Virus record (IMG/VR): IMGVR_UViG_3300021375_000014 | Location: 1 to 64,000 of that record | Origin: a virus | Strand: one strand, 5' to 3' | Length of the DNA: 64,000 nucleotides | Shown here: positions 14,492 to 30,485 of the stretch, piece by piece | Layout of the letters: each line of letters begins with the position of its first letter | Position numbering within the stretch: the first letter of the stretch is position 1 | Translations under genes and position numbers: made by a program | Notes under the pieces: generated by a model | Databases searched by the model: none | The model's input: the letters and a program-made list of their open reading frames with translations, nothing else | Told to the model about the DNA's origin: nothing

Positions 14492-15361
14492 ATGCCAAAC
14501 TATGAAGAAGATGAATACTTAGATTTACTACATCATACACTAGAGAAAGGCGAAACACGTGGTAACGAGCGCACAGGCGTTGGCACTCGATCTATCTTTA
14601 TGACTACAAATAGATACAATCTTAGTAATGGATTTCCTCTATTAACAACTAAACGTGTGCCATTTAAATCAGTTCTAAGTGAATTACTTTGGTTCTTAGA
14701 AGGATCAATGAATGAACGAAGACTTGCTGAAATTCATTATGGCAAACCTAGGGAAGAACTTATTGGCAAAACAACAATATGGACTGCCAACGCAGACTCA
14801 CAAGGCAAAGCATTAGGACACTATAATAGTGACACTAATAAAGACTTGGGTCCAGTCTACGGAGTACAGTGGCGAAACTTTAATGGAATAGATCAAATAA
14901 ATCAGTTAGTACAAGGATTAAAAAATAATCCACAATCACGCAGACATATTTTAAATTCATGGAATGTTAGTGACTTAGATAAAATGGCATTACCTCCATG
15001 CCATGTAATGTCACAGTTCTATGTAAATAATGAAGGAAGATTAAGTTGTAGTTTATACCAACGCAGTGCCGATTTATTTTTAGGTGTACCGTTTAATATT
15101 GCTAGTTATTCGTTACTAACGCATATGATTGCACATGTATGTAAACTTGGTGTAAATGAATTTATTCACGTAATAGGTGATGGTCATATATATAATAATC
15201 ACATAGATGCGGTCAGGACGCAACTGGAGAGGGATCCAGTGTCGTTTCCCACACTTGTAATAAAACGTAGCGTAGATTCTATATTTGATTTTAAAATGGA
15301 AGATTTTGAAATAGTAGGATATGACCCAGGTGATACTATTCGAGCGCCAATGGCAGTATAA
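14492..15361 (+). CDS. thyA: Thymidylate synthase
   Basis: 289 residues, normal ThyA length. Converts dUMP to dTMP with methylene-tetrahydrofolate, supplying DNA precursors. Landmarks: RTGVGTRS (folate/phosphate loop), TTKRVPFKSVLSELLWFLEG, GPVYGVQWR, SRRHILNSWNVSDL, the nucleophile Cys170 in ALPPCHVMSQFYV, YQRSADLFLGVPFNIASYSLL and HVIGDGHIYNNH. All catalytic elements are present. Last gene of its operon; a terminator follows. Confidence 0.97.
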   Translation: MPNYEEDEYLDLLHHTLEKGETRGNERTGVGTRSIFMTTNRYNLSNGFPLLTTKRVPFKSVLSELLWFLEGSMNERRLAEIHYGKPREELIGKTTIWTANADSQGKALGHYNSDTNKDLGPVYGVQWRNFNGIDQINQLVQGLKNNPQSRRHILNSWNVSDLDKMALPPCHVMSQFYVNNEGRLSCSLYQRSADLFLGVPFNIASYSLLTHMIAHVCKLGVNEFIHVIGDGHIYNNHIDAVRTQLERDPVSFPTLVIKRSVDSIFDFKMEDFEIVGYDPGDTIRAPMAV

Positions 15362-15364
15362 AAG

Positions 15365-15390
15365 AAAAGCACCTAATAGGTGCTTTTTTT
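15365..15390. terminator. Bidirectional terminator between thyA and the radical SAM operon
   Basis: AAAAGCACCT (15365-15374) pairs with AGGTGCTTTT (15378-15387), with T runs outward on both strands. It serves the converging thyA operon and the minus-strand operon, whose last stop codon lies at 15389-15391 in the T run. Confidence 0.9.
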
Positions 15391-16501
15391 ATGTCTTACG
15401 TTTTGGTATTTTACTATCTGCACTACTGACACAACTCTTGCTTATGCACGGCATTGGTTTGTCAAATAGTTTAAATCCACTTTCGATGTATCCCAATGGC
15501 TGATCTGAACAACTATAACTGCGTTTTATACTACCATCTGGTTCACGAATTATGATGCCTTGATAACCGCTATTACAACTCCAGCCTTCAAAGTTATTAA
15601 AATTAAATGCATTGAAACGCTCAGCCTGATCCATATACCATTTCTTGCCTTTCGAATCGGTAAATTCAACTTGCATATGCCACGGCACGCTTTTATCATT
15701 TTGACCAATAGCATATGCTGGAACTTGGAAATTGGGTTTGGGTCTATCATTCCATTTACGTTTTACCTCAGTATAAGCAAGTTGCGGCATACCATTCCAC
15801 AATCTTTTCATCTGTTCTTCCGTATATCCATCAACTACACGGCTTGCAGTAGGATCAGATTGCGGCTTCAATGTTACATTGATACCTTGTTCGTGAAAAA
15901 ATAATGCATTGTCCCAATCACGTTCAAACCAGTCTGGCACCATAACCATATTCACTGTAATTTGCACATCATTTTCTTGACATAATATAAGTTTATCTGC
16001 AAACTCTTGCATCTTATCTCTTGTGTTAAGATGTTCAGTATGTAAACTAGCAGTGATACTTGCACGATGAAATGGTTTAACTCTATCTACATAATCCTCA
16101 TGCCATTTAACATTACGTGACATATTAGTTGTCATATGAACACTGGTGTAGTTGGTATTTGATACATCGTCTGCAAGATGTTCCAGAATATCTAAATATC
16201 CTGGATGAAAGGTTGGTTCACCACCAGACAATGAAAAATGAAAACTATTAAATCCGTTTTCACGTGCTTGTCTCTTTATTTCATCTATGGTTCGTAGACA
16301 TAGTTCAGTAGGACGGTGGTCTTTACGGTCACTGCGGGCATAAGGCCAACAGTAGGAGCATTTGTAGTTGCAGAATCTTCCAAGTAACCAACTAACAGTA
16401 AATAGGTCACGGTACAATAAAGTACGCTGACCAACACTAACAATATCGTCAAATGGTATTTTTGTAAAGTCATAGTTAGACCATTTTAAATCTTCGCTCA
16501 T
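15389..16501 (-). CDS. Radical SAM enzyme, family B (core plus C-terminal cysteine domain)
   Basis: 370 residues. [4Fe-4S]-SAM motif CNYKCSYC (C44, C48, C51), SAM-binding SGGEP at about 93-97, then strands typical of the radical SAM barrel. The C-terminal domain (about 250-365) has FEGWSC, SYSC and CISKSC, likely binding an auxiliary cluster. This tail is clearly related to those of the genes at 23175 and 42305, and to the N-terminal half of the gene at 40936. Last gene of the operon; 3 bases after the preceding stop. Reaction unknown. Confidence 0.85.
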   Translation of the reverse strand: MSEDLKWSNYDFTKIPFDDIVSVGQRTLLYRDLFTVSWLLGRFCNYKCSYCWPYARSDRKDHRPTELCLRTIDEIKRQARENGFNSFHFSLSGGEPTFHPGYLDILEHLADDVSNTNYTSVHMTTNMSRNVKWHEDYVDRVKPFHRASITASLHTEHLNTRDKMQEFADKLILCQENDVQITVNMVMVPDWFERDWDNALFFHEQGINVTLKPQSDPTASRVVDGYTEEQMKRLWNGMPQLAYTEVKRKWNDRPKPNFQVPAYAIGQNDKSVPWHMQVEFTDSKGKKWYMDQAERFNAFNFNNFEGWSCNSGYQGIIIREPDGSIKRSYSCSDQPLGYIESGFKLFDKPMPCISKSCVSSADSKIPKRKT

Positions 16502-16504
16502 AAT

Positions 16505-17461
16505 CTATAAGTCCTCTTTAATAAATGTATCACGCTTCATCTGTTTACATACTTGCATACAACGAGGTACAGGATTATCACTATTCCAACTATTAACTAT
16601 ACCTTGCCATACATCGCTACTTATAGCATCTTCAACACTTACATTATTCAAGTTAATTGAATTTTTATAATCAGTATCTCTAAGTAATGTCTCATAACTA
16701 TCTTTGGTATTACCACTTACGCCATACTCCAATGTCTTTGCATTTAGATGACAACAAGGAATAACATCACCTGTATGGTTTATAAAAATTCGTTTTTGAT
16801 TTCCATACTTACAACTTACATAAGGAATTTCTGGTGCAGTATCAATCTTCTCTGTATTTGCTGCTTTTACATTTCCAGTAGTGTCTTTACGATGGCTAAT
16901 AATAGTTTTGAAGTTTTTAAAACCCTCAGCCGTGGCTTTATTTTTGGCTTTCTCCAATTGATGTTCGTTATGTTCGAACACGATAAACTGCCATACACTT
17001 TTGCCACCAGCTGCATTGAAAGATCGATAGTTTTGTTCTACTTTTTTGAAATTACTACCCTGCCGATATACTTCACTTAGTTCATCACTGCCGTCAATTC
17101 CCCAAGTAACATTATGGCTACTTGGTAAAATACCTGCTAACTCAGTCCACCAGTTAGTAGTTCGCAAACTACCGTTTGTTGCAATATTGATGTGCGTATT
17201 CCAATCAGCAAAATGACGGATAATATCAAAAAACTGTGGATGACTTGTTGGTTCGTCTATACTGCCACAAAAGTTTACAATTTTAATACTAGGAAATAAT
17301 TCTTTTTTAAATTTTTCACGTATAGTTTCTATTGTAAGATATTCTTTATTGATAAGATCATCAGCGTGTTTGGATATAACTCGCAAACAACCTTTGCACT
17401 CAATATTACAAAAACTAGTAAGTTCTATATCTAACCATTCTATTGTATCCATACTCCACAT
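16505..17461 (-). CDS. Radical SAM enzyme, family A (SPASM-like; CGxxxDP motif)
   Basis: 318 residues. Cluster motif CNIECKGC (C18, C22, C25). Where most radical SAM enzymes have GGEP, this one has NFCGSIDEPTSHP. C-terminal cysteines (VSCKYGNQKRIFI, VIPCCHL, CMQVCKQM) form a SPASM-like auxiliary cluster domain. Closely parallel to the genes at 22136 and 24203 (shared YRQ, HNEHQ and AGG segments). AGGGAG, 9 bases upstream, fixes the start. Substrate unknown; SPASM enzymes often act on peptides or proteins. Confidence 0.85.
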   Translation of the reverse strand: MWSMDTIEWLDIELTSFCNIECKGCLRVISKHADDLINKEYLTIETIREKFKKELFPSIKIVNFCGSIDEPTSHPQFFDIIRHFADWNTHINIATNGSLRTTNWWTELAGILPSSHNVTWGIDGSDELSEVYRQGSNFKKVEQNYRSFNAAGGKSVWQFIVFEHNEHQLEKAKNKATAEGFKNFKTIISHRKDTTGNVKAANTEKIDTAPEIPYVSCKYGNQKRIFINHTGDVIPCCHLNAKTLEYGVSGNTKDSYETLLRDTDYKNSINLNNVSVEDAISSDVWQGIVNSWNSDNPVPRCMQVCKQMKRDTFIKEDL

Positions 17462-17465
17462 ATTA

Positions 17466-18653
17466 TTATTCTCCCTGCATTGAATTATTTTTTAGATGGT
17501 AACCCAATTTCGAGTAATTATCAGTTACATAGTTACGAATATCGTTCCATAATTCACTATCTATATCACCAAAACTAGTTCCACGTATCAAGTCTAAGTG
17601 TTCTGTGTATTTTATAAACTCAGTCATTAGTGTATATGTAGTTAATGGATCATTCTCAGGCTGTGATAATATACTACGTATAGTGTCGTGATGTGGCAAA
17701 TTAATATATTTTTGTCGTATACTCCATGGCAGATTTTTAATATTTAATTTTTCTGGCCAAGTTAATGGTGATACTACATCACATTCTTCAACTAAATCAC
17801 CTAGATCATCATTTAATTTAAAGTAACTAGTTAAGTTGTAAATCTGTATAGTTTGACTGATTGTATATTTCCAATTTGGATAATCTTTCCCTATGATTCT
17901 ATAACGTTTTATAGTGTCCTTTAGTTTACTGTATGTACTATTAGTACGAATATAATCATTGATTTCACCAACACTGTCAATACTAAATTGCCAAACAATG
18001 TTAGGAAAATGCTTGACAAGATCAAACCAATACTGTTTGGTGGCAGTTGCATTAGTTGTTATCATAATATCAATGTCAGTATTGTTGCACTCTATTAACT
18101 TAGTTAAAATATCAAAACATTGTGGAGTTAAACTAGGTTCACCTCCTAATAGACGAAGTTCTTTGATGTCTTTAAGATGCTCACTGATTAATCCACTATT
18201 TACTTCTGTAATTGAAGGATTAATAAACTTTTCTTTTGCTATTTGACTACTAGCAATCTCATTACACATTCGACATTTAAGATTACACTTATTACTTAAC
18301 CGTAAGTCTAACGCAGAAGGAATGGAGGTATCTGTTATCTTATTTTTTTCATAGTGGTTAAGATATTTTTTATTCCTATCCTGCCTTTCACTCACAATCC
18401 CTAGATCTTCATTTCGATAACACGTTGCACAACTTGGATGCTCTGTATTTTCAAGCATCATCGTGCGCAAATTATTAAATTCACTATCAGCAAATAAACT
18501 ACGCATATTATCATGGCTACTGTATTTTACGCCTATGTAATTCGGATCTTGTACACAACAACTTTTAACACTGCCATCAGGATCAACATTTAGACTCGTA
18601 AAAGGAGCAACACAAAATTTAGATATGTTGTCTATTTCAGATTTATACCTCAT
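17466..18653 (-). CDS. Twitch-domain radical SAM enzyme, family C
   Basis: 395 residues from the ATG at 18653, which has an AGGAA site; an in-frame ATG at 18683 lacks one and lies deeper in the upstream gene. The N-terminal twitch-like cluster domain (FCVAPF, DGSVKSCC, CATCYRNE) precedes the radical SAM core, CNLKCRMC (C123, C127, C130), with LLGGEP. N-terminal twitch before the core is the hallmark of the twitch-domain radical SAM proteins common in phage genomes. Overlaps the upstream gene by 11 bases. Substrate unknown. Confidence 0.85.
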   Translation of the reverse strand: MRYKSEIDNISKFCVAPFTSLNVDPDGSVKSCCVQDPNYIGVKYSSHDNMRSLFADSEFNNLRTMMLENTEHPSCATCYRNEDLGIVSERQDRNKKYLNHYEKNKITDTSIPSALDLRLSNKCNLKCRMCNEIASSQIAKEKFINPSITEVNSGLISEHLKDIKELRLLGGEPSLTPQCFDILTKLIECNNTDIDIMITTNATATKQYWFDLVKHFPNIVWQFSIDSVGEINDYIRTNSTYSKLKDTIKRYRIIGKDYPNWKYTISQTIQIYNLTSYFKLNDDLGDLVEECDVVSPLTWPEKLNIKNLPWSIRQKYINLPHHDTIRSILSQPENDPLTTYTLMTEFIKYTEHLDLIRGTSFGDIDSELWNDIRNYVTDNYSKLGYHLKNNSMQGE

Positions 18654-19899
18654 GCCAATATTTCCTGAATTCTGGATAAACATCTAATATATTAGTTCCG
18701 TGGTGTTGGTCTTGTGCATTAGCGTATTCAATAAAGTCATCCCAATAATGATACCAATCCTCGCCATTCATATAATTAATTACGTTGTCACCAAATTTCT
18801 TCCATCGCTCAAATGATCTGTTTACAAATTTTTGTGAGTGATTATAAGATTGCATCCATTCTCTATCTCCATTAATCAATTCATCCCAATCATTTGTTAC
18901 TTTTTCTTTTAATGCCGGTGGTAACAATTTAGGATTTAATGGTTGAGGAAACTGAACAATACTTGTGTGATAATCAACTCCCATTGAATAATAATACTTG
19001 GCGATTTCAGTTGCTCTGGTAATATTTAATAAATTGGCTGTCATTGTTGCACTTAGTTGAATATTGCTTAACTGTAGTGCTTTTTTTATATTATCTTCTG
19101 CTATCGATAAATTACCTCGCACTCTAACGTATTCGTATATTTCAGGATACGCATCCAAACTAACTCGTATACTAACACGCTTAAAATGCTTCCACAAATC
19201 TAGTATACTTTTTCCCTTGTATTCTAGTGTACTAAAATTACTATTATATTGTAATGTAATATGGTTTGCTTCAGGTAAAATACGCTCTAAAAAATCATAA
19301 TGCTTATCATGGAACAAAGGCTCTCCGCCTGTAATCATCAATTCAGTAAGGTTAGGACTAAGTGAAACCACTTCATCAATTATCTCTTGTGTTAGACTAA
19401 CATGATTTTCAAGTTCCCTGTATGTTCCAACTTTTTTCATTTGCCCCATTAATATAGGATCTCGTTTCGCCTTCTGTTCCCATATGCTACTATATGTAGG
19501 TGAACAATGTCTGCACATTAAATTACAAATATTATCAAAACGTATTTCAATACTTTGTAGATTTTCAATTGGGTAACTGCCATCTTCTTCAATATTATTG
19601 ATAATAGTATTACTATCAACATCGGGATACATTTCAGACGCATTTTGGCGTAAACTTTTAGCACCACTACGTTCTAAATCCCAACAACTTATACATCCTT
19701 TATGCTGAACTCCATTTACTAATTCGGTTCGCACTTTACGTAACTGGTCGCCATTCCAAGTATCTGCAAGTGTATCTGTTAGAAAATCTCCAACCTTATC
19801 TGGATATCGCCAACATGCACTCAACTTGCCTTCATTTTTGATGTTAATATGATGGAAAGGCATTATGCAAAATGTATCACTCTTATTCTTATCAGCCAT
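18643..19899 (-). CDS. Twitch-domain radical SAM enzyme, family C, altered twitch cysteines
   Basis: 418 residues. N-terminal FCIMPFHHI, GKLSACW and CISCWDLE correspond to the twitch domain, but the usual CC pair is C-W here, so one cluster ligand is missing or replaced. Radical SAM motif CNLMCRHC (C125, C129, C132), then ITGGEP at about 188. The long C-terminal part is rich in aromatic residues. Starts immediately after the preceding TAA with AAGGA 8 bases upstream. Confidence 0.83.
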   Translation of the reverse strand: MADKNKSDTFCIMPFHHINIKNEGKLSACWRYPDKVGDFLTDTLADTWNGDQLRKVRTELVNGVQHKGCISCWDLERSGAKSLRQNASEMYPDVDSNTIINNIEEDGSYPIENLQSIEIRFDNICNLMCRHCSPTYSSIWEQKAKRDPILMGQMKKVGTYRELENHVSLTQEIIDEVVSLSPNLTELMITGGEPLFHDKHYDFLERILPEANHITLQYNSNFSTLEYKGKSILDLWKHFKRVSIRVSLDAYPEIYEYVRVRGNLSIAEDNIKKALQLSNIQLSATMTANLLNITRATEIAKYYYSMGVDYHTSIVQFPQPLNPKLLPPALKEKVTNDWDELINGDREWMQSYNHSQKFVNRSFERWKKFGDNVINYMNGEDWYHYWDDFIEYANAQDQHHGTNILDVYPEFRKYWHEV

Positions 19900-21309
19900 T
19901 TATATATCCTTAAATATGTCTTTCATCTCTACAAAGGTAGAACTGAAACTATTGTTGCGCTGCCTATCACATAGACTTAAATATTCTTTTAATTCTGGTA
20001 ACCTAATGCTCCAGTCTTCACTTTCCATAAATTGTAACATGCCTTGAAGACGTTTTATTCCGTATTCAGCTTCGATAAAATTTTCTTGTGTTATATTTTC
20101 CTTATGCCAACTTGGGATACCTTTTTCCCAATTCTCTTCCCACCATGGATAGAACTCTTCATACTTTTTACGTATTTCTGCTTTGAACCATTCGGGTAAT
20201 ACTTTAACGTTTAGGTGCGGAGGATGATAAACAAAGTGATAGTTAATACCACCTGCGCCAAACGGCCACATGTTTATTTTCGTAAAACCCTGTTCTAGTT
20301 TCCATCTGATGAAATCAGGTAAGTAGTAAATGTTTAAAGCCTGCACAGCACATGCAACTGTTACTTCTACATTGTCACTTGTTTGTGTATCTAATATATG
20401 AAATACTTCTTCCTGTCTGCTCCAGTTACTAGGATATCGAATATAATCATTCATACTCCCAATACTATCAACACTATAGTGAAAGCGTACTAATTTAAAT
20501 TCTTTCCATAGATCAAATAAATCATCTCTCCACTCTACGCCATTTGAGTTATAACGTAGTTCTAGATTCTTTGCATAACCATTACTAATTGCATGTTCAA
20601 GTATTTCGTAGTGTTCTTCAATAATAAGACTTTCGCCACCTGCAAAATATATCTGTTGCATACTAGGCATCTGTTCGTAAAACTGTTTCCAAAATTTTGG
20701 GTTTTGCTTGTGCCAATTATAACTACTTCTATTAGTACTACCTTTATCAGCCCACTGCATTGTTTCCTTTAGCGATTCGTTTTTTACCTCCGGAAAAATC
20801 TTTTTGTAATCTTTAATCCAACCACTACTATCATGTGGACTACACATCACACATGCTAATTGACACTTAGTACCAAATCTTAAATCAATATATGCTAACT
20901 GTGGAGGGACACCACCGTCTTCAGATGTGTTTTCGATAAGTTCATCAACATTTACACGTTTACTCCAATAATTTGTTTCCCACATACGTTTACTATTATG
21001 TCCCGATGCCTCTTCTTTGTAACACTTCATACAACTAGGAGGCTTTTCACCATTAAGCATTTGTAGTCGTACATTCTTCATGTAATTAGAATTCCAAGCA
21101 GTTTCGAAGTCACTAACATTTAGATTGTTTGGTTTGCCATCGTCTGTTTTCAGAATTCCAATTTGCCCGCCATTAACTTTATCATTGGTTGGACCAACGC
21201 TACTTGCATTTGCAGTACAACATACTCGCATACTGCCATCAGGACGAGTGCTAAGGTGTACCCATGGCAACAGACAAAATGTATCACTTGGATATTTTTT
21301 TTCAGACAT
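19900..21309 (-). CDS. Twitch-domain radical SAM enzyme, family C
   Basis: 469 residues. Twitch domain FCLLPWVHL, DGSMRVCC, CMKCYKEE; radical SAM motif CQLACVMC (C149, C153, C156); GGES in place of GGEP. A 40-residue insertion (SVGPTNDKVNGGQ and on) sits inside the twitch domain. The Trp/Pro-rich C-terminal third resembles that of the gene at 39199. First gene behind the consensus promoter at 21336, with GGAG 12 bases before the ATG. Confidence 0.85.
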   Translation of the reverse strand: MSEKKYPSDTFCLLPWVHLSTRPDGSMRVCCTANASSVGPTNDKVNGGQIGILKTDDGKPNNLNVSDFETAWNSNYMKNVRLQMLNGEKPPSCMKCYKEEASGHNSKRMWETNYWSKRVNVDELIENTSEDGGVPPQLAYIDLRFGTKCQLACVMCSPHDSSGWIKDYKKIFPEVKNESLKETMQWADKGSTNRSSYNWHKQNPKFWKQFYEQMPSMQQIYFAGGESLIIEEHYEILEHAISNGYAKNLELRYNSNGVEWRDDLFDLWKEFKLVRFHYSVDSIGSMNDYIRYPSNWSRQEEVFHILDTQTSDNVEVTVACAVQALNIYYLPDFIRWKLEQGFTKINMWPFGAGGINYHFVYHPPHLNVKVLPEWFKAEIRKKYEEFYPWWEENWEKGIPSWHKENITQENFIEAEYGIKRLQGMLQFMESEDWSIRLPELKEYLSLCDRQRNNSFSSTFVEMKDIFKDI

Positions 21310-21335
21310 TTGGTGTTTACTCCGTTATTATACGT

Positions 21336-21364
21336 ATTATACTAACATTTTAAATGATTGTCAA
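21336..21364 (-). promoter_or_regulatory. Perfect sigma70 promoter inside the radical SAM operon
   Basis: Reading the minus strand: TTGACA (21364-21359), a 17-base spacer, TATAAT (21341-21336). Both hexamers are consensus. It gives the five distal radical SAM genes (19900 to 15389) their own strong, host-type transcription start. Confidence 0.88.
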
Positions 21365-21369
21365 TATAA

Positions 21370-22152
21370 TTAATCATTAATTATTTCTCCATACGCCCAT
21401 TCACGTTCCTGACACCACCAACAAGTATTACACGTTTTAGTCCAGTTATCGGTTTTATGACCATCCCCTTCACAACTACGAGTGATCTTATCTAGTGTAT
21501 CAAGTATACCGAGGTTATCTGCCAACCACATTGTTACACGTTTATCTGCATTACGAAATGGTTCAACATATCTACAATCATCACCATTTGCATTGTGTAC
21601 CACAGTACAACTATCTATTGCAACTGCCGGACTGTTAGGGTCATTGTGGTCACGTTTTACTTCTCTATACTGGTGCATATTATCGATAGTCATAGGCACA
21701 GGCGGATTTTTAGTGACACCATTATAATCATGTACTCTACACACTTGATTATTTGGCATTTCTGCTTTTCGAATTGGATTATAATTTTGCGAAACTAAGT
21801 TTTTTTGTGCAGCAAGATATGTTGCACTTCCATTTTCCCACCAGTTTATTGCATCTAACCACTGTTTGTCTCTGATATCAGCATCTGGTATTTCTTTTCT
21901 AACCCAATCTATAATAGTATCTACTATTGGTCTATTATCAACCCGATAAAGCCATGTTCTGTCATCATCTGGATTTGCACGAACTACTGTAATAGGTTGA
22001 ATTATAGCATTAGGATTTGTTTCTGCGCATGTTTGTGCAACCATATACAATAATAGTGCACTATCAAATCCGCCACTAGTGCGAACTGTTATCATTTGTG
22101 ATTCTACCGGTATATAAACTGTACCATATGGTGTATTATAAATTTTGTTCAT
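21370..22152 (-). CDS. QueC-like PP-loop ATPase
   Basis: 260 residues. N-terminal PP-loop SGGFDS (26-31) binds ATP as in N-type ATP pyrophosphatases; the C-terminus has SCEG and CNTCWWCQER (C227, C241, C244, C247), matching the four-Cys zinc site of QueC. QueC makes 7-cyano-7-deazaguanine; QueC-like relatives attach such groups or adenylate other acids. The middle third is unlike canonical QueC, so the substrate is probably different. Overlaps the radical SAM gene at 22136 by 17 bases. No FolE, QueD or QueE partner lies in this window. Confidence 0.75.
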   Translation of the reverse strand: MNKIYNTPYGTVYIPVESQMITVRTSGGFDSALLLYMVAQTCAETNPNAIIQPITVVRANPDDDRTWLYRVDNRPIVDTIIDWVRKEIPDADIRDKQWLDAINWWENGSATYLAAQKNLVSQNYNPIRKAEMPNNQVCRVHDYNGVTKNPPVPMTIDNMHQYREVKRDHNDPNSPAVAIDSCTVVHNANGDDCRYVEPFRNADKRVTMWLADNLGILDTLDKITRSCEGDGHKTDNWTKTCNTCWWCQEREWAYGEIIND

Positions 22153-23224
22153 TGTGATCCTCTATCTTGAATTTTGCAATTGGTTTTGTTTCTTGGACTT
22201 TCTTACTACATGTGCTGGCACATTTAACCATCTTACTTCCGCAACTTGTACCATAATCTGAATCAAAACTTCCTACTAAATCTTTTTTATAAAATGGATG
22301 ATTTAATATGTCATTAACACTATGCAGATCCAACCTATTCCAATCAGGTGAATTATATTCACTATACATAGTTTTACTTACCTGATGCCAATGTGTATTA
22401 TGACCGCCGAATTCAGTATTTCTAATAAAACAGCAAGGCCACAGACGCGCATTGAAATCAATAAAATACATTTTTTGTCTTTGAAAGAAACAATCAATTG
22501 GATCGTTTTCAACACTTTTCTTTGATATAAAAAACTTATCAAGATCGTCTGGGCTTGAATTATTATATTGTTTATCTTCCGCCTGTAGCCTCTGTATGTC
22601 TTCTATTTCCCAATTATTCTCAGATATCATACTTCGGTCTAACCTATGTATGAAATTCTTAAATCCCATCTGCTTGCTTTTCTCACTTGCTTCTTCAACT
22701 TGATGTTTGTTCCATGGAAATACCAAATATTGCCAGCCCGCATCTCCGCCCGCGTGAATGAAAGATTCTGCATTTTCCATAATTCGATTAAAATTAGTTC
22801 TTTGTCTATATAAATGATTGGTATCGTGTAAACCATCTATACTAAATTTCAATTGGTGCCGGTCAAACTGTTGTAGTATTTCAGCAGTTTCAGCCCAGTA
22901 ACTTGGATTTCTAATACTACCATTAGTATGTATCCAAACTTTTTTTATTCCACATTTCAGTGCTAACCTAAGAATATCATTAAATTGAGGATGCATGAAA
23001 GGATCATCAACTGTTCCACAAAAGTCCAAATCTGTAACTGTCTCAAACTCATTTAAGAATTTTTCAATCACATCTAGTTGTAGGATCTTTTTATCTGGAA
23101 TAGTTGGCATCTTATCATTGAAATTTAGATGATTGGTACGTGCACAGCCGAAACACAGCGCATTACACATACTACTAATCTCTAGTTGTAATCGTGTAGG
23201 CTCCGGTAGATACATCTGTGTCAA
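22136..23224 (-). CDS. Radical SAM enzyme, family A (CGxxxDP motif)
   Basis: 362 residues from a TTG with GGAG 9 bases upstream; an ATG three codons later is the alternative. Cluster motif CNALCFGC (C20, C24, C27); FCGTVDDPFMHP replaces GGEP. SPASM-like C-terminus with IDCFF, WPCCF, SCGSKMVKC and STC. Very similar to the genes at 16505 and 24203. Overlaps the QueC-like gene downstream and the radical SAM gene upstream by 50 bases, so translation is coupled. Confidence 0.85.
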   Translation of the reverse strand: MTQMYLPEPTRLQLEISSMCNALCFGCARTNHLNFNDKMPTIPDKKILQLDVIEKFLNEFETVTDLDFCGTVDDPFMHPQFNDILRLALKCGIKKVWIHTNGSIRNPSYWAETAEILQQFDRHQLKFSIDGLHDTNHLYRQRTNFNRIMENAESFIHAGGDAGWQYLVFPWNKHQVEEASEKSKQMGFKNFIHRLDRSMISENNWEIEDIQRLQAEDKQYNNSSPDDLDKFFISKKSVENDPIDCFFQRQKMYFIDFNARLWPCCFIRNTEFGGHNTHWHQVSKTMYSEYNSPDWNRLDLHSVNDILNHPFYKKDLVGSFDSDYGTSCGSKMVKCASTCSKKVQETKPIAKFKIEDHNEQNL

Positions 23225-24206
23225 TGTACTTATCTCCTTTTTTCATATTTTTAATCTTAGTTGTTTGTAAATCAGTCAGACAACCACATAAGTTCCACTT
23301 ACATTTTACTGGTAGTAATGGAATACTATAATTTTTATCCCTAATATTACCATATTTTAAGTTCTTAAAACACTGGCTACCTGGTTTAATCCAACCATTA
23401 TGTTGAACTACCAGTGTTTCAACTCCCATATAACAATACCAATCTTTCCAATCATTTAGTTTTGGTAATAGTATTTCATTTTCTATACTTTTAATTTTTA
23501 CTGGTTCTTCTCCGTCTTTTCTCCACTGCATTATGCTTTGTTGTTTTTTATTTGGTGTTCCGTGTAATGTCTGCAAAGAATTCATTGTTGCTAATTGTAC
23601 ATCTGTGTACGGTTGTAAGTCATGCTTCCGTATTGATATTCTAACAGGCTTGTATTGTAAACTAATATTATGGGTTAAATTATCATACAAATATTTATAT
23701 GTGGCAACACACCCATCAAATTGTGCAATATCCATCATAACATGCAATGATATATTTATACCCGATTGTTGAACTTGATTAAATTTTTCAACAATCTTTT
23801 CTTTTTTGGTCTGCCCCTCATGAATACTTACAATAAGCAAATCGAATAAATGTGCTCTATCAGTCCACCATTTTGTGCCGCGTGTGCCGTTAGTTAATAA
23901 TCGGATTATATTATTTTCATTTATATTTTTAATATACTCACAAACTTTATCCACCTCTGGCCATAATGCAGGCTCACCACCATGAAAATTAAAAAACATT
24001 ATTTTTTTCTGTGGGACACATATTTTTTCCCATATAAAATCAATGAACCTAACACAATCATCAAAATCATGCCAGGGAACTCCGCCATCCCAACATGCTG
24101 GATCACAGTAAGAGCATTGAAAATTACAAGTGTTTCCTGCAGCCCAATCAATGATTATTGCATTTTCTGACGCGGGTTCAAAATAATCATATTCATCTTT
24201 TGTCAT
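23175..24206 (-). CDS. Radical SAM enzyme, family B
   Basis: 343 residues. Motif CNFQCSYC (C27, C31, C34), FHGGEP at about 74-79, then a barrel with IRLLTNGTRGTKWW. The tail has DWYCYMG, SQCF and CKWNLCGC: the family B auxiliary cysteine domain. Most similar to the gene at 42305. Starts at an ATGA overlap with the upstream stop. Confidence 0.85.
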   Translation of the reverse strand: MTKDEYDYFEPASENAIIIDWAAGNTCNFQCSYCDPACWDGGVPWHDFDDCVRFIDFIWEKICVPQKKIMFFNFHGGEPALWPEVDKVCEYIKNINENNIIRLLTNGTRGTKWWTDRAHLFDLLIVSIHEGQTKKEKIVEKFNQVQQSGINISLHVMMDIAQFDGCVATYKYLYDNLTHNISLQYKPVRISIRKHDLQPYTDVQLATMNSLQTLHGTPNKKQQSIMQWRKDGEEPVKIKSIENEILLPKLNDWKDWYCYMGVETLVVQHNGWIKPGSQCFKNLKYGNIRDKNYSIPLLPVKCKWNLCGCLTDLQTTKIKNMKKGDKYIDTDVSTGAYTITTRD

Positions 24207-25288
24207 CTGAATTGTTCCTTAAACGGATCAAATTCGGATCCACACTTCATTGCGCATACTCCCAACTTACCGTCACTTAAACTAGATTTACTCCAACTGT
24301 CTGTAATGCTATTTAATAATGTACCATCCATAACATTTTTTATATCATTGGTAATAACATTAATTCCATCTTTACCACCAGATGAATCAATGTGATCCCA
24401 AATCTGCTCTACACGATAATCTTTATGCCACCATTTATACATACGTCCAGCAGTCCAACAACATGGCATTAATAATCCCTCAGCAGTAACAAAAATCTCA
24501 TTCTTTTCTACTGCCTTACATTTAATAGAACACTTATCATAATAGTCTCTCATTGACCCATAAGATTTTTCTATTTCTTTTTGTTTTAATAATGCAATAT
24601 TCTGATTATCAATACTTTTTGGTTTCGCAATCATTGTTGTTTTTTCACCCTTGCGATTTTGAGCCTGATGTGTCTCTTTAGATGTTTCACCACTTGCAAC
24701 TATAAATCTTCCAGATTTTTTCTTTTGAAACTTTTCACATCCCCATTCAATAGCAAGTGCTTCTGCTTCTGCAACCTGATGTTCATTGTGTTGGAATATC
24801 AAAAAATCCCATCTCGCTCTACCACCGGCAGAAATAAATGTACGCATATTACGTTCTACATTATCCCAAACAACATTTTGTCTATAAAGATGATTAGTAT
24901 CACGGAGACCATCAACACTAAATATTACTGCACCTTTATTATTAATAACACCGGCCAATTCTTCCCACCATTCTGAATTCTTTGCACCGGCATTTGTATT
25001 CATACTTAGCCACATTGTAGAATTATGTTCTCTAAAGTATTTAAATACTTCTAATGTATCTCTAGCAACAATGGGATCACCAAGATTGCCACACATATAC
25101 ATAGCGTCTAATTGTCCTATAAACTCCGGAGAGAATATCTTTTTACAATCGTCTATTGATAGTTCTGCATTAGTAATATGTCTATTGTCAACCCCACCGT
25201 TTTCATTTCGATCACACATAGGACACGCTGCTTGGCAACGTTGAGTTATTTCTAGATGAACTTGTTTTATGTTACTATATCTATACAA
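24203..25288 (-). CDS. Radical SAM enzyme, family A (CGxxxDP-like motif)
   Basis: I place the start at the TTG at 25288 (361 residues), because it puts 17 residues before the first cluster cysteine as in its paralogues, has GGGGA 10 bases upstream and overlaps the previous stop by 8 bases; an ATG at 25369 would overlap by 89. Motif CQAACPMC (C18, C22, C25); MCGNLGDP in place of GGEP; SPASM-like cysteines DKCSIKC, MPCCW, CAMKC. Shares DTNHLYRQ and HNEHQV with 22136. Directly follows the second QueC-like gene. Confidence 0.83.
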   Translation of the reverse strand: MYRYSNIKQVHLEITQRCQAACPMCDRNENGGVDNRHITNAELSIDDCKKIFSPEFIGQLDAMYMCGNLGDPIVARDTLEVFKYFREHNSTMWLSMNTNAGAKNSEWWEELAGVINNKGAVIFSVDGLRDTNHLYRQNVVWDNVERNMRTFISAGGRARWDFLIFQHNEHQVAEAEALAIEWGCEKFQKKKSGRFIVASGETSKETHQAQNRKGEKTTMIAKPKSIDNQNIALLKQKEIEKSYGSMRDYYDKCSIKCKAVEKNEIFVTAEGLLMPCCWTAGRMYKWWHKDYRVEQIWDHIDSSGGKDGINVITNDIKNVMDGTLLNSITDSWSKSSLSDGKLGVCAMKCGSEFDPFKEQFR

Positions 25289-25946
25289 GTCTACCAAATC
25301 CCCATTGTCTTTCTTTACAAAACCAACATTTGCCACAGTGATGTGTAAAATCAGTGGTGTGAATTTCACAACTTCTAGTCAATGGGAATATTTCCTCTAA
25401 TATTCCCAATGTAACATAATGTTCACACACACCTTTTTTATCAGTATTGATCAACGGGCGTGTACTAAATCCATTAGTATAAGATTTTTTTTCTTTGCCA
25501 CGTTGACGTTCATTATACCATGCTGAATTAAATTCGCTAGGATCTACTAGTTCAGGTGCTTGCTCTGCGCTAGGGTTAGCAGTTATTCCAGCATAGTGGG
25601 ACTGTAAACCATATGATTTGTAAGCATTGATTACCAAAATGTCTTGGTCTTTAACATAGTTTGTATCACTCCTTACTGGCCCAGCGATATGAGTACTAAA
25701 GGTATAGTTGACAAGCGATTCAATTTTTGATATAACCTGTTTAGAAAATATTTCCTGAAATGGTTTTTTTTCACTCACTCCAGTTATAGGATAAATTTTT
25801 AAATCTGGACGTTCCGCTTCTGCATATTTGGCCAACATATAGGCTACTAATGCACTATCTGCCCCGCCTGATATTTTTAATCCTATTTTAGTAATGTTAG
25901 AATCTATACTCATTGTATAGTCATCTTGTGTGTTTTTAAATAGCAT
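25281..25946 (-). CDS. QueC-like PP-loop ATPase (second copy)
   Basis: 221 residues, close to canonical QueC length. PP-loop SGGADS (26-31); C-terminal RSCE and CGKCWFCKERQWGFG (C193, C204, C207, C210) as the zinc site. Related to the gene at 21370, but shorter and divergent in the middle. GGGA precedes the ATG. Paired with the family A radical SAM gene at 24203, as the other QueC-like gene is paired with the one at 22136. Predicted to activate an acid or amide by adenylation; substrate unknown. Confidence 0.77.
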   Translation of the reverse strand: MLFKNTQDDYTMSIDSNITKIGLKISGGADSALVAYMLAKYAEAERPDLKIYPITGVSEKKPFQEIFSKQVISKIESLVNYTFSTHIAGPVRSDTNYVKDQDILVINAYKSYGLQSHYAGITANPSAEQAPELVDPSEFNSAWYNERQRGKEKKSYTNGFSTRPLINTDKKGVCEHYVTLGILEEIFPLTRSCEIHTTDFTHHCGKCWFCKERQWGFGRLV

Positions 25947-25984
25947 CTATTTTCCCATTATAAATTCAACTTTTAAAGTAATAT

Positions 25985-26902
25985 TTACTTATATCCTATT
26001 ATCATAAATCGCTTATACTTATCAAGTTTTAATTCACCACTATATAATATATTTTGCATAGGCGCCATTACTACAAACTCTGCAATGTTATTTATACAAT
26101 TGACATGTTCCTCTACTTCAAAAAAGTTATTGCTTTGTAGTATAACTAGTTTACCATCTGGTATTAGATCATACCACGCTGCAAAGTTCGCAATATGTTC
26201 GCAACTAGTATTAATTATAGTGTCAGGAGAATCTACAATAGGATAACTCATACGATTGTTCGTTTTACTCCAACATTGCCAAGTATGTTGAGTATAATCA
26301 ATATCTAGTATGTCTGCTGTTATGCTTTTAAACTTCCATTGATTCGAAAACCAAGGATTATTAAAAACTTCTGCAATGTCTACACAAGTTTCGTCAATGT
26401 CAAAACTGCGGATTTTGTCTACTTTAATGTCGCTTTCAAACAGCATGGTTGCAAGAGTAGCGTACCATCCTGCACATAAGAAAACAGTACCTAAATCTAC
26501 ATTACACTTTTTAAGTTCATGTACTAACCAAAGTTTACTTCGCAACTGTCCTCGACTGAAACAGTCATTCCATATTTCGGTATTGTTAACAAAAAAACTT
26601 TTGAACGCTGCTGTAAATTGTGTATCAACATAACGATCTAATACTGGCCACAACTTCCAAGTGTTGTCTTCTAGTATAAGTTTACGCAAGTCCTCGTCGT
26701 CCGTAAGTCTAAAAATACTGTGCAGATTTTGTTCAAGCACTGCTCTGCGCAAGTCTTCTAGTTCTCCGTTTATTGCGGCTGGCAGCAATCTAAAAATACT
26801 TGAAATATCTTGATCAATATATGCTCTGCGTAAATCAGCAAGGTTACTATTAGTAGGATATAGTAGTTCAAATCTATCTAATAATTCAAATGTTTTGAGC
26901 AT
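25985..26902 (-). CDS. Methyltransferase-like protein with N-terminal repeats
   Basis: 305 residues. Residues about 20-90 contain three copies of a roughly 25-residue helical repeat built on DLRRAxxxQDxxSIFRL. The rest looks like a class I SAM-dependent methyltransferase fold: VFLCAGWYATLATML at the SAM loop, RSFDIDETCVDIAE at the second strand acid, DTIINTSCEHI at the catalytic region. Homologous to the protein at 26903. The glycine-rich loop is poor (one Gly), so SAM binding is uncertain. Confidence 0.6.
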   Translation of the reverse strand: MLKTFELLDRFELLYPTNSNLADLRRAYIDQDISSIFRLLPAAINGELEDLRRAVLEQNLHSIFRLTDDEDLRKLILEDNTWKLWPVLDRYVDTQFTAAFKSFFVNNTEIWNDCFSRGQLRSKLWLVHELKKCNVDLGTVFLCAGWYATLATMLFESDIKVDKIRSFDIDETCVDIAEVFNNPWFSNQWKFKSITADILDIDYTQHTWQCWSKTNNRMSYPIVDSPDTIINTSCEHIANFAAWYDLIPDGKLVILQSNNFFEVEEHVNCINNIAEFVVMAPMQNILYSGELKLDKYKRFMIIGYK

Positions 26903-27832
26903 TTACTTAATACCGATTTTCATATAATAATTTATCCCATTTATTTTTTGTACACCGGAATATAGTTCTGTTGTTAACTGAAACTTGCGATTAAATGCTA
27001 TTGAGCTAGTGAATGGTCTACATGAATCATCACTGCTACTGCCAACTAATACAACATATCGTGTCGTTGGAACCATTCTCCACCAATCTTCATAGTGTTC
27101 AATATTGCTAATATTAGTATTAATTATAACATTAGGAATTTCATCAAATGGATTACTCAAACTGCCATCCGGTAAAGTAGTAATAAATGTGTTACTAATG
27201 TAATTTATATTAAATATATCTTGTGTGGCAGATTTAAAGTTCCAATCTTCTAGCAATTTATCTTTCATCATCGAATCTGCCATGAATTGGCCGGATGGGT
27301 TTAAATCAAAACTACGAATATTTTGAAATATTAACGAACTATCCAAAAAGCTTGTACCTAATAATCCAATGCCACCATCTAAGATATAAATTGTCCCTAG
27401 ATACTTTGCTGCAAATATATTTGTCATCTGGGATATTATCCAACTGTTTATAGTACCATTAACGTCAGTAAGATAGGATGACATGTCAAAATTAGGAAAA
27501 TCATAAATCAAATCTTTAATTCTGCGTATCATCATGCCACTCTGAGAAACATTTATACTATGATAAGCAAGATAATCCATTGCACACCTATAGTTACCAA
27601 GCTGCTGTGAAGTATTATCTTCTGTATACAAATTACTCATGTACTGATAATCATACTTCTGTATTTTTGAATTTGTAGATATTATAACATCAGGATCAGA
27701 TACAATTTCATTTGTTTCTTCAATTATAAGTGTTGGATTTGTGTTGTTATTCAATTCATCATACACAACTGAGTTTGTTTTGAGTGTATTTGTTTTTCTT
27801 CTTGCTGCTCTTTTGTTTCTGACACTACTCAT
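26903..27832 (-). CDS. Methyltransferase-like protein
   Basis: 309 residues from the ATG at 27832, which overlaps the upstream stop; an in-frame TTG at 27844 has no spacing for a ribosome site. A basic, disordered N-terminus of about 65 residues precedes the domain. YILDGGIGLLGTSF, RSFDLNPSGQF and NVIINTNISNIEHYEDWW align with the 25985 protein, so the two are paralogues. Likely class I methyltransferase fold. Stops one base before the next start. Confidence 0.6.
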   Translation of the reverse strand: MSSVRNKRAARRKTNTLKTNSVVYDELNNNTNPTLIIEETNEIVSDPDVIISTNSKIQKYDYQYMSNLYTEDNTSQQLGNYRCAMDYLAYHSINVSQSGMMIRRIKDLIYDFPNFDMSSYLTDVNGTINSWIISQMTNIFAAKYLGTIYILDGGIGLLGTSFLDSSLIFQNIRSFDLNPSGQFMADSMMKDKLLEDWNFKSATQDIFNINYISNTFITTLPDGSLSNPFDEIPNVIINTNISNIEHYEDWWRMVPTTRYVVLVGSSSDDSCRPFTSSIAFNRKFQLTTELYSGVQKINGINYYMKIGIK

Positions 27833-28916
27833 AATATCTATCAAACCTTTCTTTTAGCCAATTATAATCATTTATTTTATTTAATTCTATGATGTTTTCT
27901 TTATTTTCTTCACCATATTTTCGGCCTGCAATCGCACCAGCAATGGCGTATTCGCCAAATTTTTTGTTTTTTCCTATCGCTGTCCAAGTAAACAATCGTT
28001 CATTTGTTTCTGTATCTACTTGTCCCTTAATGGTCTTACTCGACAACTTAGTACATTCCCTGAACGCACTTTTCCAAGCATTAAATGGATCGGTGTTAAA
28101 CTTAGTCACATTAGATATATCCGGCATTAACTTAAAATGTTCTGATATACTAGTAGTAAAATCTATATTCCAATCAGTTGCATTTCTCAGTAATGCTGTT
28201 GGAAATAATTTAACACCGCCATATCCATACACCAAGTCATTGATAGGATTAATTGAATGCCATGCATGCACGACTGTACGATCCCATATGGGTGCATAAT
28301 AATCAAAATTAAAATCTGGAGAAATAATAGCATCTGCATCTATTACGTAAAACATATCAGTTTCGGCAATCATTGCTGCTTTTTTGTGTGCATTAAAAAT
28401 TCCAGTAACACCGTGGACACGCTTTGCATATGGAAAACGTTCTAATATTGTTTGATAATTTTCATCAGCAAACTCTTCATCATAACTTAAATAAATTATA
28501 TCGTACAGTTTAATATTAGAATTAACACCACAGAGATCGTGTTTAATATATTCACCAGATAATAGATATAAATCATTTTCAATATTGTCTACATCATGAT
28601 TTTTATGTAACAATCTAATGCCTATATCGTGGCCGTGTTCATTTCTTATACCTGTATCGCCGCTCCAAATATGTGATAAATTATTATCCCATTCAGAAGG
28701 TCGGAAGTTCCAATCAAAGTCCGTTAAATTTATTTGATTATCGATTATCCAATAGTACTGAGTATTAACGTGCTTTTTTATTTCTTTGTGTAAATCATGT
28801 ACATTATTATTTGTTTTAACAATCTGTACATTTGGAATCTTTTCCTTGACTTTTTTATATTGTTCAATCACTTGAACGTGTAAGTCATCTATTATATAAA
28901 AACAATCGTATGCCAT
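27825..28916 (-). CDS. Glycosyltransferase-like protein
   Basis: 363 residues. The central segment DIIYLSYDEEF, PYAKRVHGVTGIFNAHKKAA and FYVIDADAII reads as a GT-A-type nucleotide-sugar transferase with a DxD metal motif (IDADA). The same block is in the protein at 43521 (YLSYDEP, IDGDN), so these are paralogues. The N-terminal 130 residues are an extra domain with a second WIIDNQ segment, possibly a degenerate repeat of the same fold. Acceptor unknown. Confidence 0.65.
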   Translation of the reverse strand: MAYDCFYIIDDLHVQVIEQYKKVKEKIPNVQIVKTNNNVHDLHKEIKKHVNTQYYWIIDNQINLTDFDWNFRPSEWDNNLSHIWSGDTGIRNEHGHDIGIRLLHKNHDVDNIENDLYLLSGEYIKHDLCGVNSNIKLYDIIYLSYDEEFADENYQTILERFPYAKRVHGVTGIFNAHKKAAMIAETDMFYVIDADAIISPDFNFDYYAPIWDRTVVHAWHSINPINDLVYGYGGVKLFPTALLRNATDWNIDFTTSISEHFKLMPDISNVTKFNTDPFNAWKSAFRECTKLSSKTIKGQVDTETNERLFTWTAIGKNKKFGEYAIAGAIAGRKYGEENKENIIELNKINDYNWLKERFDRYYE

Positions 28917-28949
28917 TGATATCCCATTAATTATTATTATTATATCATA

Positions 28950-30485
28950 TTAATCATCGTGTGTAAAGACTTTTATTCCATAATGATTAGAAAATTCTCG
29001 GGCATCATTTATATCATTGACTATAGGTTGTCCTTTTATATTCAATGATGTATTAACTAACATTGGACATCCAGTGTTCTTTTTAAATTCAGTTAATAAT
29101 TCATACAATCCAGCATGTTGGCTCTTGTTTACTGTTTGTACCCTTGAAGTGCCATCTATATGCACAATAGCCGGAAACTTTTCTGGATATTTGCATTTAG
29201 CAACAAACTGCATATACGGAGATTCTATAATGTTTTCTGGCATGTCAAAATAATCGTGTACATCTTCTTCTAATATCATAGGAGCAAATGGACGAAATTT
29301 CTGTCTATGCTTAATATTATTCATTCTATCTTTAATAGTATCTCCACGTGGATCTGCTGTAAGTGTGCGATTACCTAATGCTCTTGGACCAAACTCCGCG
29401 CGTCCGTTAGCGATGCCAATTATTTCACCATCTAGCAATGCTTTTAGGGCACGTTTAACAGGATAAGAACCCGCAATATTATGTCCCAGATACGGAGTAT
29501 GTAATTTAGTTCTCTTATTAAAAAATAAAGATCCACTTGCTCCAATACAACTGCCAGCATCACCAGGATTAGGCATAATCCATATATTTTTAAATCTATC
29601 AGTGATAGAACTATTAGCACTACAGTTAAGTGCACATCCTCCCATCAGTACCAAGTTTTCACATTTTGTGTTTTTACGGGCGTATTCTATTATTTTGACT
29701 AACATCTGCGTATATATATGTTGTGTTGCTGCCGCGATATCAAATTTGTCTTGTTCACTCGTTAACTCAGATAGAAAATCATTACATCCTCTGTGTAGAT
29801 TTTTTTTAAAATTAACAATATGATAAAATTTACTCGTATGATCATTTAATTTTATTCCAAATTTATCATACATGTGATTTACTATCGTTTTGCCTCTTAC
29901 CTGTCTGGTAATGTCTCCATATGCCGCCATACCCATAAGTATATACTCATCTTCTTGTGGTTTTAAACCCAATCTTGCTGTCATCGCACTGTAAAATAAA
30001 CCAATACTATCAGGATAAACTTGTGAATAAATTTTTTCTAGATTATTACAATTACCTTTCCATATAGTTAATGTTTCTAATTCACCTATACTATCAATTA
30101 CTACTACAACAGCATTATTAAACGGACTAGTAAAATATCCACTTGCAGCGTGGGTATAATGATGCGATTGATATATTATCGGAATGTTTCGAAGTTGTGA
30201 AAATGATTTTAAATAACGTTTCGGCAGTTCGTTCATATCAAATGCTAACGAATATTGGCCAGCAACAAATTGTCTCCACTTTTTTACATATGGACGTTCA
30301 TACCACGCTATTACATCAGGCGTACCATACGAGAGGGCTTCTTGAATTATTTCTGCATTCAAGTTAGGATCATTTTTAATTTTAGAATAGCGTTCACTAT
30401 GACTAGCGAATAAAATTTCACTGTCTTTAATGACGCTGACCGCAGCATCATGGTTTAATGCACCTGATATACCTAATACAATCAT
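28950..30485 (-). CDS. Carbamoyltransferase (NodU/TobZ/CmcH family)
   Basis: 511 residues, near the family length (about 560). The family transfers carbamoyl from carbamoyl phosphate through carbamoyl-AMP onto hydroxyl groups of sugars or antibiotics. Visible: N-terminal GISGALNHDAAVSVI (His12), SHHYTHAASGYF (H108, H109, H112), VVVIDSIGE, LMGGCALNCSANS, GRAEFGPRALGNRTLTADPR and the C-terminal KFRPFAPMI. Both the ASKHA-like N-domain and the C-terminal YrdC-like domain are represented. Start overlaps the stop of a 37-residue gene (ATGA). Confidence 0.92.
   Translation of the reverse strand: MIVLGISGALNHDAAVSVIKDSEILFASHSERYSKIKNDPNLNAEIIQEALSYGTPDVIAWYERPYVKKWRQFVAGQYSLAFDMNELPKRYLKSFSQLRNIPIIYQSHHYTHAASGYFTSPFNNAVVVVIDSIGELETLTIWKGNCNNLEKIYSQVYPDSIGLFYSAMTARLGLKPQEDEYILMGMAAYGDITRQVRGKTIVNHMYDKFGIKLNDHTSKFYHIVNFKKNLHRGCNDFLSELTSEQDKFDIAAATQHIYTQMLVKIIEYARKNTKCENLVLMGGCALNCSANSSITDRFKNIWIMPNPGDAGSCIGASGSLFFNKRTKLHTPYLGHNIAGSYPVKRALKALLDGEIIGIANGRAEFGPRALGNRTLTADPRGDTIKDRMNNIKHRQKFRPFAPMILEEDVHDYFDMPENIIESPYMQFVAKCKYPEKFPAIVHIDGTSRVQTVNKSQHAGLYELLTEFKKNTGCPMLVNTSLNIKGQPIVNDINDAREFSNHYGIKVFTHDD

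Follow-up and report, generated by a model that had tools for sequence, protein, structure and literature searches.

QueC-family enzymes and the phage QueC-like genes

QueC, the 7-cyano-7-deazaguanine synthase (TIGR00364), carries the canonical motifs YxQxHxxE, VPxRN and YPDC (PMC13329287). Cap9, an enzyme of the cyclic-oligonucleotide-based antiphage signalling system (CBASS), conjugates a deazaguanine to protein (PMC11996544), and QatC of the Qat defence system, which also belongs to the QueC family, has a substrate site that is remodelled (PMC13279940, PMC13329287). Arrays of radical S-adenosylmethionine (SAM) genes in T4-like phages, called highly unusual in 2010, have been unexplained since (PMC2853527). 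Here we describe two QueC-like genes, QA (25281–25946) and QB (21370–22152), which lie in such an array on the minus strand of the IMG/VR virus record IMGVR_UViG_3300021375_000014. The window analysed is a stretch of 64,000 nucleotides (nt), positions 1 to 64,000 of this record of 95,949 bases, which carries T4-like genes for the portal, the major head protein, a late sigma factor and a gp46-like protein. The record is possibly a fragment, and absences of genes are given for the sequence present; open reading frames (ORFs) were called mechanically throughout.

QA (221 amino acids, aa) contains SGGADS and cysteines 193, 204, 207 and 210, and QB (260 aa) contains SGGFDS and cysteines 227, 241, 244 and 247. 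An earlier description made from the letters and their ORFs (the sequence-only reading) had reported that both ATPases retain SGGxDS and a four-cysteine site, and this is what the sequences contain; the four ORFs that it named, QA, QB and one radical SAM gene next to each, are all present as described. PF06508 was matched at 24.7 bits by QA and 24.1 bits by QB (gathering cut-off 22), the C-terminal four-cysteine part alone scoring, and in a six-frame search at 20.2 and 17.8 bits, under that cut-off. The two proteins are 26% identical and fall on separate tree branches. AlphaFold2 predicted QA, as a single chain and at high confidence, with a PP-loop fold (mean predicted local distance difference test score, pLDDT, 93.5). 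The best solved match of QA, by profile and by fold, was Cap9, with a modest TM-score of 0.51/0.61. PDB searches with single protein sequences returned nothing useful, and PADLOC gave weak QueC and viperin matches only.

Relatives were collected by an alignment-based scan of IMG/VR and of GTDB genome contigs, the best 80 loci per scan being analysed. The family has at least 532 relatives in IMG/VR and six in the GTDB genome contigs, many of its contigs being fragments, and a tblastn search with four QueC-like members against 50,697 cultured phages found no relatives. Its signature consists of SGGxDS, G[IVT]TxNPP, an invariant Arg, P[FLW]x4K, T[RY]SCE and CGxCWWCxERxW. Invariant in 82 aligned members are SGG, D30, R147, K170, the four cysteines and E212; these members all have SGGxDS and the C-terminal four-cysteine site, bar one with SGGxDT. 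SCE occurs in 74 and P[FLWVM]x4K in 81 of 86 members, and YPDC, YxQxHxxE and VPxRN are each found in none of the 86.

With Cap9 of type IV CBASS (PDB 9nto; PMC11996544, PMC13279940, PMC13329287) the family shares a compact PP-loop core, SGGxDS, a CE followed by CxxCxxC, and P-x5-K. The Cap9 substrate motif H(x)4YxDCxxxF is however missing (YxDC in 0 of 86 members), and the phage proteins have an extra invariant residue, R147, and the WWCxERxW end. They are also found in radical SAM islands and not in a known CBASS operon; no cGAS/DncV-like nucleotidyltransferase was seen among the neighbours scanned, models for that enzyme not having been run. QueC has the fold, SGGxDS and the four-cysteine site in common with the family, which lacks the three canonical motifs and has Cys-Glu where QueC has Cys-Tyr. 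QatC, at about 400 aa, is longer and is extended at both its N- and its C-terminus. Because Cys-Glu and Px5K are common to Cap9 and the phage proteins and YxDC has been lost, the family is a divergent branch of the QueC family whose substrate site has changed. It enlarges the QueC family by a virus-dominated branch that lies outside the clusters of PMC13329287; in the literature searched, with subscription journals mostly outside the scope, we found no paper on the family or on its pairing with radical SAM genes. Its genes may possibly be miscounted as queC in surveys of virus metabolic genes.

The six cellular relatives (L095–L100) are all on metagenome-assembled-genome contigs. Since the gene layout of L098 is much like that of the viral loci L054–L060, some of these contigs may be viral contigs that were binned with cells. 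Two or three QueC-like genes are clustered, with no directly adjoining radical SAM gene, in L023 (4297–7455), L025, L026, L043 and L045, and in L026 one of them, the second copy, has diverged strongly. One clade that is free of radical SAM genes (L056, L067, L071, L091 and relatives) is located among the T4-like structural genes, directly beside the one for the large terminase subunit.

An ordered island with an optional QueC-like gene

QA and QB belong to an unbroken run of 14 minus-strand genes (15389–30485), eight of which encode radical SAM enzymes, in the order carb, gt, mB, mA, QA, rS1, rS2, rS3, QB, rS4, rS5, rS6, rS7 and rS8. The two pairs QA/rS1 and rS3/QB, singled out by the sequence-only reading, are thus not stand-alone units. 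The gene rS4 (19900–21309) was used as an anchor for the collection of 80 loci, so that these were not selected by the presence of a QueC-like gene. They contain a median of nine radical SAM genes; a QueC-like gene is found in 48 of them (60%), a gt homologue in 68 and an mA homologue in 62. Gene order is conserved without exception for carb-gt (13/13), gt-mA (58/58), mA-CGxxxDP radical SAM (60/60) and mA-QueC-like (35/35). The QueC-like gene is therefore an optional module of an ordered island made of carbamoyltransferase, gt, methyltransferase, CGxxxDP radical SAM and N-twitch radical SAM genes. This defines in aquatic viruses a recurrent island with about nine radical SAM genes per locus and a ligase-like ATP-dependent module in 60% of the radical SAM-anchored loci, and supplies a minimal gene set for expression. 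The cultured jumbo Vibrio phage K566 (L182, 156937–173536) has several neighbouring radical SAM genes that are distant relatives of rS4.

Phage modules with multiple radical SAM genes are known; the present module and the QueC-like family add variants that are new. The Campylobacter T4-like phages CP220 and CPt10 have 11–12 radical SAM genes and an interchangeable cluster with five of these plus nucleotide-sugar-transferase-like genes (PMC2853527), but they differ in having an amidinotransferase, no QueC-like gene is annotated in the stretch examined, and the radical SAM similarity is distant (24.5%). Pelagimyophages carry radical SAM cassettes in a hypervariable host-recognition region (PMC7029224). 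In the Pelagibacter phage Mosig EXVC030M a carbamoyltransferase, an mA-like methyltransferase, radical SAM enzymes, a nitroreductase and an Asp/Asn hydroxylase are encoded near tail-fibre genes (61–70 kb), although this version of the island is without a QueC-like gene and identity is about 24%. This cultured SAR11 phage, with its distant island (L183, 50458–74952) beside tail-fibre and VrlC genes, is a possible experimental handle.

The radical SAM partners of QA and QB are rS1 (24203–25369) and rS3 (22136–23224). CX3CX2C is CQAACPMC in rS1 and CNALCFGC in rS3; CG(x)3DP, which takes the place of the GGE found in other radical SAM proteins of the run, is MCGNLGDP and FCGTVDDP, and both proteins have a C-terminal PCC/C/C set. 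The assignment of both partners to the CGxxxDP subfamily is thereby confirmed. A third protein of this type is encoded by rS7 (16505–17461); CX3CX2C is found in all three and is invariant among 18 aligned sequences. Their membership of the radical SAM superfamily is indicated by PHROG matches (phrog_21308, 1.7e-19 for rS3 and 1.7e-33 for rS7), while Pfam misses rS3 and places rS1 slightly below its cut-off.

Both QueC-like genes had been described as overlapping their partners. The overlap of 17 nt between rS3 and QB stands, whereas that of 89 nt between QA and rS1 is mostly a start-codon artefact: it results when the ORF is taken at its greatest length, and a start at the in-frame TTG at 25288 leaves 8 nt. 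This TTG is probably the true start, because CX3CX2C is then located at residue 18 and the protein is near the length of its orthologue in L017. Overlaps are in any case common in such islands (QueC-like with radical SAM genes 69%, radical SAM with radical SAM genes 78%, radical SAM with other genes 79%), and the QueC-like/radical SAM overlap is not special. No fusion of the two domains was present in the loci examined, no ORF of more than 300 aa having the cysteine signature.

The genome-neighbourhood search that had been proposed shows that QueC-like and radical SAM genes recur together widely. Among 87 non-redundant family members, 46 have a same-strand radical SAM gene within 100 nt and 8 within 3 kb; 33 have none, so that there is no general dependence of the QueC-like enzyme on a radical SAM neighbour. 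These adjacency statistics are drawn from related loci. The radical SAM contexts are intermingled on the family tree yet clustered (14 changes vs 28 in shuffles). In the anchored sample, 63 of 67 QueC-like genes adjoin a radical SAM gene, against an expected 52.8 (p 0.0005), with preferences for N-twitch (47 vs 30.7 expected) and rS8-like neighbours (24 vs 14.7 expected). One N-twitch subgroup adjoins a QueC-like gene in 10/10 non-redundant cases and a wider subgroup in 14/18. CGxxxDP neighbours showed no such preference (16 vs 20.2 expected), and a family-wide preference for this type, tested twice, was rejected.

The QA clade (≥39% identity) and the QB clade present a different picture. A CGxxxDP gene adjoins the QueC-like gene at 15 of their 17 non-redundant loci, against 12 of 75 for other members (Fisher p 2.6e-8, the related loci not being independent). 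Within these clades the order flips (QA-rS1 in this record, rS1 before the QueC-like gene in L018 and L159), and the neighbour may be of subtype rS1, rS3, rS7 or another. The pair is located away from the methyltransferase end in L021, L022 and L137, and position alone therefore fails to explain all pairings. Conversely, rS1-type genes have a QueC-like neighbour in 8 of 75 non-redundant cases and rS3-type genes in 1 of 15. Given their low identity, their separate branches and the order QueC-like/radical SAM in the one and radical SAM/QueC-like in the other, the QA and QB pairings are two independent associations and not a duplicated block. The window by itself is weak evidence for a dedicated pair, because in random orders of the 14 genes both QueC-like genes touch some radical SAM gene in 70% and a CGxxxDP gene in 14%. 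The pairing from which direct cooperation had been argued thus holds within the QA and QB clades and does not extend to the family. The conserved unit is the island, a dedicated pair being found only within clades, where we read the QueC-like/CGxxxDP link as a real yet exchangeable coupling.

Proposed role and rival explanations

For PP-loop ATPases such as QueC, Cap9, asparagine synthetase and NAD synthetase, the expected first step is the adenylation of a carboxylate or of an amide oxygen. We propose, with what we regard as an even chance of being right, that QA and QB represent a phage-dominated QueC-like PP-loop branch that performs an optional tailoring step, as a carboxylate-activating amide ligase, within a multi-radical SAM island. 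A scaffold would be built or altered by the radical SAM enzymes, together with the products of gt, the methyltransferase and the carbamoyltransferase genes. In the next step, as the predicted fold suggests, a carboxylate of this scaffold would be adenylated by the QueC-like enzyme with ATP. Attack by an amine, either ammonia or an amino compound, would then release AMP and yield an amide or, if a second round follows as in QueC, a nitrile. What is made would most likely be a modified saccharide or small molecule that is placed on the surface of the phage or its host. Sugar or small-molecule tailoring is proposed because of the partner genes of the island: besides the methyltransferase fold, carbamoyltransferase, UDP-glucose dehydrogenase, class III aminotransferase, short-chain dehydrogenase/reductase, Asp/Asn hydroxylase, cupin, nitroreductase and AdoMet decarboxylase genes recur, and sulfotransferase-like and cytidylyltransferase-like genes are found close to a second radical SAM cluster. 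The simplest proposal is an amide whose carboxylate is radical SAM-derived or comes from a uronate. The same logic applies to CmoY of Synechococcus phage S-B43, an asparagine-synthetase-like, ATP-dependent amide ligase that uses a carboxyl group put in place by another, neighbouring enzyme of the phage (PMC12783734); CmoY, however, is of another family, acts on 5-carboxymethylcytosine in DNA and is without a radical SAM island. More tentatively, the branch could have become a coupling enzyme of general use, which activates carboxylates, teams up with interchangeable radical SAM classes in a combinatorial viral assembly line and gives many uncultured T4-like phages different radical-derived amides or conjugates for modification of surface or virion; we consider this extension somewhat doubtful.

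Several observations weigh against the amide ligase proposal. The substrate and product of the QueC-like step are putative, gt was assigned by inspection of its sequence, and the family members without a nearby radical SAM gene (33 of 87) show that the enzyme does not generally rely on such a neighbour. The closest solved relatives of the island radical SAM proteins include the peptide maturase SkfB, which would suit a peptide substrate, and weaker profile matches of the QueC-like proteins to thiolases, NAD synthetases and asparagine synthetases leave room for sulfur transfer.

Adjacency might simply reflect dense packing, the QueC-like enzyme being one step of the island pathway or part of unrelated phage biology, without direct cooperation between neighbours. 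This is a realistic if less than even prospect. It is in line with the random gene orders, with overlaps that are equally frequent between other island genes, with the low share of rS1-type genes beside a QueC-like gene (8/75) and with the clade beside the terminase gene, but it does not predict the CGxxxDP association of the QA and QB clades (15/17 vs 12/75) in flipped orders and differing island positions, nor the N-twitch subgroups found beside QueC-like genes in 10/10 and 14/18 cases. We think it unlikely that the enzymes resemble Cap9, or perhaps QatC, in conjugating an adenylated carboxylate, that of a nucleobase or another acid, to a protein of the phage or its host, either at the N-terminus or at an amine. 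Cap9 is the top solved match by profile and fold, it likewise has CE in place of the Cys-Tyr of QueC, and P[FLWVM]x4K (Cap9 motifs from PMC13329287). Many island radical SAM proteins are moreover twitch/SPASM-like. Peptides are known substrates of enzymes of that type. Against protein conjugation, the Met-Gly acceptor N-terminus of the Cap9 and QatB partners is conserved in no gene class of the island, the YxDC motif of Cap9 is missing in 86/86 members, and the TM-score to Cap9 is just 0.51/0.61.

A role as sulfur-transfer PP-loop enzymes of the TtuA/NcsA, ThiI or LarE kind, with the cysteine cluster thiolating the island product or tRNA, is improbable: profile matches to NcsA (3.9e-5) and ThiI (1.2e-4) and fold matches to NcsA (7.1e-5) and TilS (4.6e-5) speak for it, yet Cap9 scored highest in both kinds of search and what is invariant is a C-terminal C...CxxCxxC as in QueC and Cap9, no other cysteine being invariant. 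Very improbable indeed is that QA and QB are fast-evolving preQ0 synthases that provide 7-deazaguanine for phage DNA or tRNA, even though PF06508 is matched slightly over its cut-off and QueC is a frequent annotation in virus gene surveys (PMC9301287). The catalytic motifs are missing in 86/86 members, and with 18.4 and 18.9 bits the two proteins are far below the cut-off of 150.3 of the TIGR00364 equivalog model. FolE, QueD and tRNA-guanine transglycosylase are all absent from the 95.9-kb record; in related records they are present in 5/50, 6/50 and 0/34, respectively, FolE and QueD being mostly far from the QueC-like gene by coordinates. The view that this is not the canonical preQ0 pathway is thereby upheld. 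The sequence-only reading would have been refuted by homologues occurring regularly beside FolE, QueD or QueE without a radical SAM partner, or by a lack of co-occurrence elsewhere; co-occurrence was found, alongside the 33 homologues that have no radical SAM neighbour.

Layout of the run and other genes of the record

The run begins with carb (28950–30485), a carbamoyltransferase of the NodU/CmcH type (PF16861 185 bits, PF02543 159.6 bits). Next is gt (27825–28916), a conserved island protein that looks GT-A-like by eye (DADAIISPDF) and whose function is tentative; it has neither a Pfam nor a PDB profile match. The product of mA (25985–26902), an island core gene, has a predicted class I SAM-dependent methyltransferase fold (AlphaFold2 pLDDT 91.2, matches to methyltransferase folds), and mB (26903–27844) is its paralogue (20% identity in the alignment). 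Between rS1 and rS3, rS2 (23175–24206) has the CX3CX2C and GGE motifs (PF04055 32.3 bits). The N-twitch radical SAM genes rS4, rS5 (18643–19899) and rS6 (17466–18683) score 421, 326 and 263 bits with NF033640 (cut-off 170 bits); rS4, the best-conserved gene of the island, has at least 595 viral relatives. The run is closed by rS8 (15389–16501; PF04055 59.4 bits). Pfam finds 11 radical SAM matches in the whole record, to which rS3 is additional.

By consensus match only, a promoter-like TTTACA-17-TATAAT (11/12, with TG before the second hexamer) lies at the carb/gt boundary (28939–28967), the gap from QB to rS4 contains TTGACA-17-TATAAT (21336–21364), which matches a sigma70-type promoter perfectly, and an intrinsic-terminator-like hairpin with a 10-bp stem is located immediately 3' of rS8 (15365–15387), all on the minus strand. 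Because these sites bracket gt-mB-mA-QA-rS1-rS2-rS3-QB and rS4-rS8, the two blocks may be two transcription units.

An ordinary-looking thymidylate synthase gene (14492–15361, plus strand) faces the end of the island. DNA hypermodification via a hydroxymethylase is unsupported, as this enzyme retains the usual Asn of FNIASY (by eye against known enzymes). A second cluster on the minus strand (37128–43312) has four further radical SAM genes, one with a B12-binding domain (37128–39272), and near it are sulfotransferase-like (34808), cytidylyltransferase-like (35602) and GDSL-like (33781) genes. Also on the minus strand, 48964–58251 encodes a protein of 3095 aa, which over its N-terminal 2000 residues shares about 27% identity (62% coverage) with a large Pseudomonas jumbo phage protein that is labelled as virion structural in some phages. 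On the plus strand (7176–8213), this phage record contains an SbmA/BacA-like peptide transporter gene (PF05992, 265 bits).

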